64,000 bases of DNA from Mesorhizobium sp. M3A.F.Ca.ET.080.04.2.1 (GTDB lineage: Bacteria > Pseudomonadota > Alphaproteobacteria > Rhizobiales > Rhizobiaceae), in assembly GCF_003952525.1 (NCBI RefSeq), contig NZ_CP034451.1, positions 5,804,501 to 5,868,500 of the forward strand. The letters run 5' to 3'. Under the pieces are notes generated by a model that saw only the letters and a list, made by a program, of their open reading frames with translations, did not search any database and was not told the origin of the DNA. Made by a program: the position numbers and the translations under genes. Positions 24,818 through 27,038 of the stretch are shown in pieces; position 1 is the first letter of the stretch; every line of letters starts with the position of its first letter.

Positions 24818-26227
24818 CTATTCCGCCGCTTGCGCCCGCGGAGGCAGCCCCAGCCACTCACGGCAATCGGACAGAGCGCGCGCCGTGATCGCGCGGCGTT
24901 TGGTAACCGTCTTGTCCTTGCCGCGCAGGCGCTTGCCCTCGATCCTGGGTGCTTCCACCGGAGGGAACAGGCCGAAATTAATGTTCATCGGCTGGAAGGA
25001 ACGCTTGCCCGGCTCGTCATCCGACACGAGGTGGCCGCCGATGATGTGGTTGAGCAGCGCGCCGAAAGCCGTTGTGAGGGGCGGCAGCGACAGTGCTTGG
25101 CCGAGCCGCTCGGCGGCGGCGAAACGGCCGGCGAGCAAGCCGATTGCCGCACTCTCGACATAGCCTTCGCAGCCGGTGATCTGACCGGCGAAGCGCAGGC
25201 CAGGACGCGATTTCAGTTGCAGCGACGGATCGAGCAGCGTCGGCGAGTTGATGTAGGTGTTGCGGTGCAAGCCGCCGAGACGCGCGAACTCGGCATTCTC
25301 GAGCCCCGGAATGGTGCGGAAGATGCGCACCTGCTCGGCATGCTTCAGTTTGGTCTGGAAGCCGACCATGTTGTAGAGCGTGCCCAGCGCATTGTCCTGG
25401 CGAAGCTGCACGACCGCATAGGCCTTGACCGAGGGATTGTGGACATTGGTCAGGCCCATCGGTTTCATCGGTCCATAGCGAAGCGTCTCGACGCCGCGCT
25501 CGGCCATCACTTCAATCGGCAGGCAGCCGTCGAAATAGGGTGTGCCTTCCCAATGCTTGAACTCGGTCTTTTGCCCCTCCAGCAGAGCCGCCACGAAGGC
25601 GAGATACTGCTCCTTGTCCATCGGGCAGTTGATGTAGTCCTTGCCGGTGCCGCCGGGGCCGACCTTGTCGTAGCGCGACTGGAACCAGCAGGTCGTCATG
25701 TCGATCGTATCGAAATGCACGATCGGCGCGATGGCGTCGAAGAAGGCGAGCGCGTCGGCGCCGGTGGCTTCGGCGATCGACTGCGCCAACGAAGGCGCCG
25801 TCAACGGACCGGTGGCGACGATCGCCTGGTCCCAGTCCTTGGGCGGCAGGCCGGGCACTTCCTCGCGCTGGATGGTGATCAGCGGATGCGCCTTGATTTT
25901 GGCAGTGACCGCATCGGAAAAGCCGTCCCGGTCTACGGCAAGCGCGCCACCCGCAGGCACCTGGTGCGCATCGCCGGCACTCATGATCAGCGAGCCGGCG
26001 AGCCTCATCTCGGCATGCAGCAGTCCGACGGCGTTGGCCTCGGCATCGTCGGAGCGGAAGGAGTTGGAACAGACGAGTTCGGCCAGCCCATCGGTCTTGT
26101 GCGCGTCGGTGCCGCGCACCGGCCGCATTTCATGCAGCACGACGGGGACTCCGGCCTCGGCGATCTGCCATGCCGCTTCGGAGCCGGCGAGGCCGCCGCC
26201 GATGACGTGGACGGGATTTTTCTCCAT
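24818..26227 (-). CDS. trmFO: Methylenetetrahydrofolate-tRNA-(uracil-5-)-methyltransferase TrmFO
   Basis: A 469-aa folate/FAD-dependent enzyme that makes 5-methyluridine-54 in the T-loop of tRNA. The N-terminal FAD-binding [18 protein letters not shown] is clear, followed by VVLHEMRP and [20 protein letters not shown], both diagnostic of TrmFO/GidA relatives. The C-terminal [11 protein letters not shown] and [20 protein letters not shown] blocks match the family. The ATG at 26227 ([12 protein letters not shown]) is the natural start. It is about 70 bp downstream of the terminator of the hairpin array on the same strand. Confidence 0.95.
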
Positions 26228-26300
26228 GAGCGCCGCAATAGTCGCTTAGCGCAGCGATTGCAATTGCCGGCCGCGAGAAGTGGATCTGGGAAAACGCGCC

Positions 26301-26342
26301 AAAAAACACAACACCCGCCGGGGGAGGAGGTCCGGCGGGTGT
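26301..26342 (-). terminator. Intrinsic terminator formed by the last anti-SD hairpin
   Basis: On the minus strand the 11-bp stem ACACCCGCCGG / CCGGCGGGTGT (26342-26332 with 26321-26311) is followed by TGTTGTGTTTTTT. Hairpin six of the array therefore doubles as the Rho-independent end of the transcript, before trmFO. Confidence 0.8.
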
Positions 26343-26572
26343 CGTTTTGTTGGTCGATCCTCGGGAGGAGGTGAAGATCGGCCTATTCGTCATTGCCGGG
26401 GAGGAGGTCGGCTTTGACGAAATTCCTTTTTGCCTGGAAGACGAACTGCGTTCGCTTCGGGAACAACGCCCGCCGGGGGAGGAGGTCCGGCGGGCGCCGT
26501 TTCGATGGTCAGCCCCTGGGAGGAGGTAGGGGTTGACCGTATCCGTCAGGGTCGGGGAGGAGGTCGACCCTG
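26311..26572 (-). ncRNA. Array of six anti-Shine-Dalgarno hairpins (cuckoo/CcsR-type sRNAs)
   Basis: Six stem-loops share one 10-nt loop, GGGAGGAGGT on the plus strand and ACCUCCUCCC in the minus-strand RNA. Loops lie at 26555-26564 (A), 26518-26527 (B), 26477-26486 (C), 26399-26408 (D), 26363-26372 (E) and 26322-26331 (F). Stems are 8-11 bp and differ in sequence between neighbours, while the loop is invariant. A, B, C correspond in order to D, E, F with a period of 155-156 bp, and GGAATTTCG precedes each triplet. They follow two DUF1127 genes on the same strand. This is the arrangement known for CcaF1 and CcsR1-4 in Rhodobacter, whose CCUCCUCCC loops resemble anti-SD sequence. Processing into separate sRNAs is inferred. 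Confidence 0.85.
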
Positions 26573-26584
26573 GCGAAATTCCTC

Positions 26585-26725
26585 TTAGACCGCCTTGCGG
26601 GCGATCATCTTGATCTCGTCGCGAACGATGCCGAGATCATTGAGCTGGCGGTTCGAAAGCCGACCCAACTCGGTAACCGTGTCGCGATAAACGCGCCAGT
26701 TGCGGTAGCTGCGGATCAGGTTCAT
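26585..26725 (-). CDS. DUF1127 small protein (second of pair)
   Basis: A 46-aa Arg-rich protein starting MNLIRSYRNWRVYRDTVTEL and ending RDEIKMIARKAV, with GRLSNRQLNDLGI in the middle. This is a complete DUF1127 domain. DUF1127 proteins in alphaproteobacteria include CcaF1, an RNA-binding protein that influences maturation and turnover of the sRNAs encoded downstream. Here the stop at 26585 is only 13 bp from the first anti-SD hairpin. It is 36 of 46 residues identical to its neighbour by eye, so the pair is a tandem duplicate. Confidence 0.92.
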   Translation of the reverse strand: MNLIRSYRNWRVYRDTVTELGRLSNRQLNDLGIVRDEIKMIARKAV

Positions 26726-26776: not shown

Positions 26777-26917
26777 TTAGACCGCCTTGCGGGCGACGTA
26801 ATGAATGTCGCTGCGGCTGATGCCGAGGTCGGTCAGTTCACGGTTCGACAGGCGGCTCAGTTCCGAGACGGTGTCCCGGTAACGGCGCCAGTTGCGGTAG
26901 TTGCGGATCAGGTTCAT
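26777..26917 (-). CDS. DUF1127 small protein (first of pair)
   Basis: A 46-aa DUF1127 protein: MNLIRNYRNWRRYRDTVSEL, then SRLSNRELTDLGISRSDI, ending HYVARKAV. I use the ATG at 26917 because the domain begins there and the same start is used by the downstream copy; a longer in-frame start at 26986 lacks support. The 51-bp gap to the second copy suggests a dicistronic message continuing into the hairpin array. In Brucella and Agrobacterium, DUF1127 genes are controlled by the LysR regulator VtlR, and a LysR-type palindrome lies 100 bp upstream at 27018-27038. Confidence 0.92.
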   Translation of the reverse strand: MNLIRNYRNWRRYRDTVSELSRLSNRELTDLGISRSDIHYVARKAV

Positions 26918-27017
26918 GGTAGTGCTCGTTTCGTCTTTCGTTCGGATTATTCCGTCTGCGTACGAACAGGAAATAAGTGGGGTCATATCGGTTTAAAAGT
27001 GCCATTGGCGCATGGCA

Positions 27018-27038
27018 GCAATGCAAATTGTGCATTGC
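27018..27038. promoter_or_regulatory. Perfect palindrome with LysR T-N11-A spacing upstream of DUF1127 genes
   Basis: GCAATGCA (27018-27025), AATTG, TGCATTGC (27031-27038): a perfect 8-bp inverted repeat with 5-bp spacer. T27022 to A27034 gives the T-N11-A pattern of LysR-type operators. It sits between the divergent DUF1127 pair and the DUF2157 gene and could serve either. The regulator is not identified in the window. Confidence 0.5.

Follow-up and report, generated by a model that had tools for sequence, protein, structure and literature searches.

The CcaF1-CcsR1-4 operon of Rhodobacter sphaeroides places a DUF1127 gene directly upstream, on the same strand, of repeated anti-Shine-Dalgarno (aSD) stem-loops and a terminator-like hairpin, and DUF1127 genes with CcsR-like small RNAs (sRNAs) have been named the CIN1 locus (PMC10253847). 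RSs0680a, which is CcsR1 (PMC5036791), is reported to contain two aSD stem-loops, and members of the family are on record whose RNAs contain two, three or four hairpins (PMC3927594). The S. meliloti RNAs SmelC201, SmelA075 and SmelA099 are built from the same hairpin module in varying number (two, three or four). S. meliloti NfeR1 (Rfam ar14, RF02344; the cuckoo/NfeR1 family) has three redundant aSD loops that silence ntrB, silencing being lost in a triple loop mutant, and its promoter carries an LsrB-bound motif at −72 to −60 and is repressed by NtrC (PMC10746234). S. meliloti has six NfeR1 copies, only one of which was detected on Northern blots under the tested conditions (PMC7143759), so that copies can be silent. 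In Brucella, VtlR activates three DUF1127 genes together with AbcR2 (PMC12595884); the parts of the literature available to us name AbcR2 and proteins in this VtlR/LsrB regulon, not ar14 arrays.

The Mesorhizobium locus analyzed here, which stands beside trmFO, unites ar14/NfeR1 sRNAs, DUF1127 proteins and putative LsrB/VtlR control, subjects that the same literature treats apart. With the Rhodobacter operon it shares the same-strand order of DUF1127 gene, repeated aSD stem-loops and terminator-like hairpin, but it carries ar14 trimers, two DUF1127 genes and an LsrB-type motif, whereas the Rhodobacter operon has two-hairpin RNAs and an RpoHI/RpoHII promoter. It resembles NfeR1 in the hairpin unit and in the LsrB-type promoter motif; published NfeR1, however, is a single unit behind its own promoter, and here two units follow two DUF1127 genes. 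The likeness to the Brucella regulon lies in DUF1127 genes under a (here presumed) LysR regulator with a related motif. Unlike in SmelC201, SmelA075 and SmelA099, the repeated element is the whole three-hairpin unit, of which genus members have two to four copies and one relative has six. The array is real, conserved and functional-looking, and is largely another example of the known ar14/NfeR1 kind. What may be new is the architecture, in which an LsrB-type motif and DUF1127 genes precede two to six ar14 units and the first unit has stayed distinct from those after it.

Two ar14 units behind two DUF1127 genes

Within the window, the whole 64-kb stretch of DNA that was analyzed, one strand carries in order two DUF1127 genes, ar14 unit 1, ar14 unit 2 and trmFO (Table 1); the closest named TrmFO proteins among the matches listed, which may leave out this genome itself, are from Mesorhizobium. 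An earlier sequence-only reading had reported six minus-strand stem-loops with identical loops downstream of two DUF1127 proteins. The stem-loops are real, every loop being ACCUCCUCCC, and both upstream ORFs match PF06568 (DUF1127; cut-off 23.3 bits). The corresponding forward-strand 10-mer, GGGAGGAGGT, has six exact copies in the window, all inside 26322-26564, against a mean of 0.08 in 100 shuffles, none of which reached six; with one mismatch allowed the count is 7 against an expected 3.5 and was equaled in 7 of 100 shuffles, which is unremarkable by itself. As a bare word the 10-mer is not enriched across the 6.17-Mb genome, where its 14 copies (six in the array, four in two other ar14 loci and four elsewhere) compare with 23 for the reversed pattern. 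Each of the six copies forms the loop of a stem with 4 to 15 contiguous pairs. The 306-nt strand spanning 26295-26600 folds at −139.8 kcal/mol (z = −7.0; none of 100 shuffles as good) with five of the six loops in local hairpins and hairpin 5 paired elsewhere, and folding 26301-26584, or each unit by itself, yields all six hairpins.

Table 1. Features of the trmFO-linked locus, listed in the direction of the minus strand.
Feature	Position	Strand	Details
TGCA-N6-GCAT, LsrB-type motif	27021..27034	-	upstream of operon
CATTGCTGCCATGCG	27009..27023	-	12 of 15 to VtlR motif CAATGCAGCCATGCA (by eye); overlaps LsrB-type motif
Putative promoter CTTTTA-N17-TTATTT	26971..26999	-	predicted start point about 26964
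DUF1127 protein 1	26777..26917	-	46 aa; PF06568 61.8 bits; start region conserved across genus
DUF1127 protein 2	26585..26725	-	46 aa; PF06568 54.4 bits
ar14 unit 1 (hairpins 1-3)	26461..26581	-	RF02344 89.6 bits
Hairpin 1	26547..26572	-	loop ACCUCCUCCC
Hairpin 2	26507..26538	-	core 26513-26532, extension over one mismatch
Hairpin 3	26462..26501	-	15-bp stem
ar14 unit 2 (hairpins 4-6)	26306..26425	-	RF02344 89.1 bits
Hairpin 4	26388..26419	-	core 26395-26412; 2x2 purine internal loop
Hairpin 5	26355..26380	-	forms in fold of 26301-26584, not of 26295-26600
Hairpin 6	26308..26345	-	14-bp stem, terminator-like
T6 run past hairpin 6	26301..26306	-	
trmFO, next downstream gene	24818..26227	-	NF003739 678.8 bits

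The six hairpins are two tandem, complete three-hairpin ar14 units and not six equal modules. Both units match RF02344 in Infernal over the full model (positions 1-123 of 123; gathering score 58.8 bits), and they are 77.6% identical to each other. Besides the score, they have the other features of ar14 membership, namely three hairpins with CCUCCUCCC loops and stems that vary yet remain paired, which they share with NfeR1 along with a length of about 120 nt. The sequence-only reading had proposed a cuckoo/CcsR-type array; it found the right superfamily, aSD hairpins in a DUF1127 operon, but missed ar14/NfeR1. Its description of the system as little described does not fit a three-hairpin RNA that has an Rfam model and, in PMC10746234, published experimental work. 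Its comparison of six here with four in Rhodobacter sets hairpins against RNAs; four two-hairpin RNAs would amount to about eight hairpins.

Four ar14 units in the genome score above the cut-off, two of them in the tandem array and two as isolated copies at other places, and there are ten DUF1127 matches, none of which lies within 1.5 kb of either single copy. One single copy (L120, 1719-1834) lies between a phasin gene and a tRNA gene. The other (L119, 1618-1734) is flanked by LacI-like and TetR-like regulators, both weak model matches, and has a 13-of-15 match, by eye, to the VtlR motif about 40-55 nt upstream.

Conservation within the genus and the family

The DUF1127-DUF1127-ar14 arrangement is present in 60 of 61 Mesorhizobium genomes, the genome under study included, and 61 loci were found in all, since G006 (86% complete, 6% contamination) gave two and G023 none. 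By a strict count, which requires the inner eight bases in all three loops of a trimer, 39 of these loci have two complete trimers, 16 have three, one has four, four have one and one has none, so that 56 of 61 carry two to four. The loci below two are those of G026, G019, G007, G005 and G050; G024 and G036 have a third trimer with a changed loop and were scored as two, and the G053 array spans two contigs, of which one was counted and L063 left out. With two trimers in 39 loci and three in 16, six hairpins as an exceptional number had to be rejected. The spacings within a trimer are 37 nt in 115 of 134 trimers and 41 nt in 123 of 134, and neighboring trimers are 52 to 148 nt apart; this near-constancy within and variability between trimers identifies the trimer as the unit. 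Decayed arrays, with one and no complete trimer, respectively, were seen in the 4.2- and 4.6-Mb genomes G005 (L038) and G050 (L061), where both DUF1127 matches are still present.

That the loop is under selection while the stems vary, as the sequence-only reading supposed, is borne out by near-invariant loops and by strong covariation in two of the stems, those of hairpins 2 and 3. Among 134 trimers, hairpin 1 keeps an exact loop 9-mer in 134, hairpin 2 in 133 and hairpin 3 in 127, figures that are upper bounds because trimers were picked by their inner eight bases and losses are under-counted; the check for loss of the loop in relatives that keep the flanks did not go against the reading, with the limit that five of the 61 loci have fewer than two complete trimers. 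In an alignment of 39 genus and family units, hand-picked from 64 loci, 19 of the 21 pairs of hairpins 2 and 3 changed on both sides, and 97.8% of cells were paired, where shuffling gave 78.1% (no shuffle among 500 came up to the observed value) and sliding gave 33-50%; for the number of pair types, which is the weakest of the measures, 7 of 500 shuffles did as well. RNAalifold did not predict hairpin 1 from this alignment, and hairpin 1 was counted within the genus only because its register is off by one between the genus and other genera. The proposal that the last hairpin serves as terminator is plausible here, where a T6 run follows it, but it is not conserved in a strict form, since a run of at least five T, 15-40 nt from where the last loop begins, was seen at 19 of the 61 genus loci.

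First and later units of an array form distinct classes. Mean identity is 0.882 among first trimers and 0.915 among last trimers of different species, and 0.792 between first and last trimers within one array (0.785 between arrays). In a tree of 132 units, which has few columns, weak inner forks and an unsettled bootstrap, a branch supported at 99/99 separates all 60 first copies from later ones; most middle copies form a further group, together with three copies labeled last, at least two of which belong to arrays in which the loop of the actual last trimer is altered. The separation of first from later copies both on the tree and by identity indicates that the doubling is old and that the classes have been kept apart. 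They also differ in structure: across the genus, a 2x2 purine internal loop in the first hairpin is found in 74 of 74 later copies and in none of 60 first copies, in which the positions mismatched in later copies pair in 59 and 60 of 60.

Outside the genus, a trimer-junction pattern was found in 88 of 394 family genomes and 33 of 109 genera, besides 102 of 146 genus genomes, with no hits of the reversed control among the rows listed. The pattern covers a limited spacing range and misses 44 of 146 genus genomes, some of them with wider-linker arrays. It also catches at least one single ar14 locus (G002, contig 55) and four-hairpin RNAs of the SmelA099 kind (L125, L126 and L130), so that the number for the family cannot be read as that of tandem trimers. 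A genome of another genus (G254; L133, 1445-2375) has six tandem full ar14 units with 16 exact loops behind two DUF1127 genes. This array is the longest regular one that we encountered. Among 80 listed trmFO loci from named records, two of which (L168 and L174) end shortly upstream of trmFO, a DUF1127 gene lies within 2.5 kb upstream in 72, two or more exact loops occur in 58, and the two features coincide in 57. In two Aurantimonas loci (L228 and L234) the stretch from a single DUF1127 gene to trmFO contains a long, irregular array of aSD loops, of which 7 and 8, respectively, are exact.

Promoter block and candidate regulator

A conserved block precedes the first DUF1127 gene. Of the 61 genus loci, 60 have within it TGCA-N6-GCAT, the LsrB-type motif as defined in PMC10746234, and in 39 the motif is at −117 from the ATG of that gene. 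Within the window the motif occurs, in either orientation, at five places. Relative to the predicted start point it would lie at about −70 to −57, beside the −72 to −60 reported for nfeR1. The VtlR motif CAATGCAGCCATGCA, as quoted in PMC12595884, has a partial match overlapping it (Table 1). The published NfeR1 has its own sigma-70 promoter with the LsrB motif right upstream of the sRNA, an arrangement not found here, the stretch from the first DUF1127 gene to the array being free of TGCA-N6-GCAT. The presence of the motif before the DUF1127 genes, and its absence between them and the array, favors a 3′-UTR origin of the sRNAs. Among the 72 listed trmFO-linked loci with a DUF1127 gene, 48 have the motif 40-200 nt before that gene and 24 do not. 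None of the 127 control stretches, which were drawn from trmFO and the sequence past it and are unmatched in composition, has the motif.

CTTG, the −35 core of RpoH promoters, does not occur in the 123 nt that precede the first DUF1127 gene at any of the 61 loci. An LsrB-type motif together with the lack of CTTG speaks for control of the LsrB type rather than Rhodobacter-like RpoH control, to the extent that promoter sequence can indicate it. Induction by heat or oxidative stress, as foreseen in the sequence-only reading, was carried over from the RpoHI/RpoHII promoter of Rhodobacter and does not suit a block of the LsrB/VtlR type without CTTG; an oxidative response may nonetheless occur, LsrB being reported to be redox responsive in Agrobacterium (PMC11975290). 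The NtrC motif TGC-N11-GCA, which the nfeR1 promoters of symbionts carry, is missing from the 240 nt upstream here, and just 4 of the 61 genus loci have it in the stretch from −200 to −120, so that only the LsrB half of the S. meliloti circuit is supported, and the nitrogen circuit may not carry over.

As for the regulator itself, lsrB stands behind trxB in Rhizobiales (PMC11975290), and in this genome a LysR ORF (L118, 2420-3316) lies directly behind trxB. No LsrB-specific model was among the matches listed for this ORF, and its identification as a candidate LsrB comes from its neighborhood.

Proposed action, alternatives and pairing

We consider it probable that one transcript gives rise both to DUF1127 proteins and to two NfeR1-like sRNAs, that it is activated by LsrB, and that the aSD loops block Shine-Dalgarno sites. 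LsrB would bind and activate transcription of a single RNA encoding the two DUF1127 proteins and carrying the two tandem ar14 sRNAs in its 3′ UTR, which would end at an intrinsic terminator. RNases would then cut the variable linkers between the three-hairpin units, and each freed unit could pair through its three aSD loops with many mRNAs, those of transporter genes included, at the ribosome binding site and so lower their translation. Silencing of mRNA through aSD loops has been shown for S. meliloti NfeR1 (PMC10746234) and would be expected to operate in the same way here; the targets, and any role of DUF1127 proteins in maturation at this locus, we infer. The locus itself contributes sequence, predicted structure, covariation, family membership, and conservation of layout and promoter motif. 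The reading predicts that Mesorhizobium makes DUF1127 proteins and aSD sRNAs together in response to LsrB. We found no description of tandem ar14 units in the titles, abstract beginnings and some passages that our search covered, the 2015 cuckoo work being beyond its reach, and the portion of an M. huakuii sRNA study (PMC5596092) available to us makes no mention of ar14, r14, DUF1127 or cuckoo.

More tentatively, and at present with less reason to believe than to doubt it, we speculate that in several genera of the family a DUF1127 operon with two to six polycistronic aSD units per transcript, whose positional classes have escaped homogenization, uses the number of units to set the dose of sRNA per LsrB activation and handles the first unit differently. 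A DUF1127 protein or a processing enzyme might, for instance, tell the first unit, with hairpin 1 paired through, from later ones. Natural arrays of 6, 9, 12 and 18 hairpins offer a test bed for sRNA dose by unit number.

The loops might instead mainly bind the DUF1127 protein, in the manner of CcaF1, with the array acting as a sponge or autoregulatory 3′ UTR and mRNA pairing being secondary. This we regard as unlikely, even though DUF1127 and the hairpins are linked in many Hyphomicrobiales, as in the 57 of 80 trmFO loci with both, CcaF1 is reported to be an RNA-binding protein active in CcsR maturation (PMC10253847), and long arrays with identical loops suit multivalent binding. The two single ar14 copies in the same genome have no DUF1127 match nearby, the loop sequence complements that of Shine-Dalgarno sites, and ntrB silencing was lost in the S. 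meliloti triple loop mutant (PMC10746234). Moreover, RNA binding by DUF1127 proteins is disputed, none being evident for Salmonella YjiS in the available account, in which the Agrobacterium DUF1127 proteins act on PhoR (PMC12501420); the present locus offers a clean system for this question.

Even less probable is that the hairpins merely form a stabilizing 3′ UTR and terminator of the DUF1127 mRNA and have no action in trans. Such a role is in keeping with the T run after the last hairpin and with the protection that GC-rich, strong stems can give to a 3′ end, but stability would not fix the letters of the loop while the stems change with compensation, and the loops of the unlinked ar14 copies are kept too. 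The reading to which we give least credence, a CcsR-type, RpoH-controlled stress array as in Rhodobacter, has the matching order of DUF1127 gene, aSD hairpins and terminator (PMC10253847) to recommend it, but RSs0680a/CcsR1 has two hairpins where the unit here has three and scores as ar14, for which reason we do not class the operon as CcsR, and the promoter block carries the LsrB-type motif and lacks CTTG.

Pairing with candidate targets can be given as illustration of the proposed silencing by NfeR1-like units, any strong Shine-Dalgarno site being able to pair with such loops, which makes it weak evidence. The likely ntrB start, called from its place after dusB and from its best model although the cut-off was missed (183 of 240 bits), forms six contiguous pairs with the loop at −9.7 kcal/mol, which is weaker than a plain Shine-Dalgarno sequence (−11.7 kcal/mol) and does not reach the eight nucleotides of the S. 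meliloti ntrB pairing. A screen for ten-base complements gave four sites outside ar14, two of them near a start codon, with ORFs of 3, 70 and 117 aa, and was unconvincing. With eight bases the screen found 37 sites, and the reversed pattern found 8, a difference that shows only likeness to Shine-Dalgarno sequences (20 of the 37 sites inspected). The DUF1127 starts pair with the loop at only −2.2 and −3.5 kcal/mol, which is near nil, so that silencing of the DUF1127 proteins by their own array is not expected. At the start of a periplasmic-binding-protein gene, a type of gene that NfeR1 is reported to target, the loop can form nine contiguous pairs at −17.4 kcal/mol.
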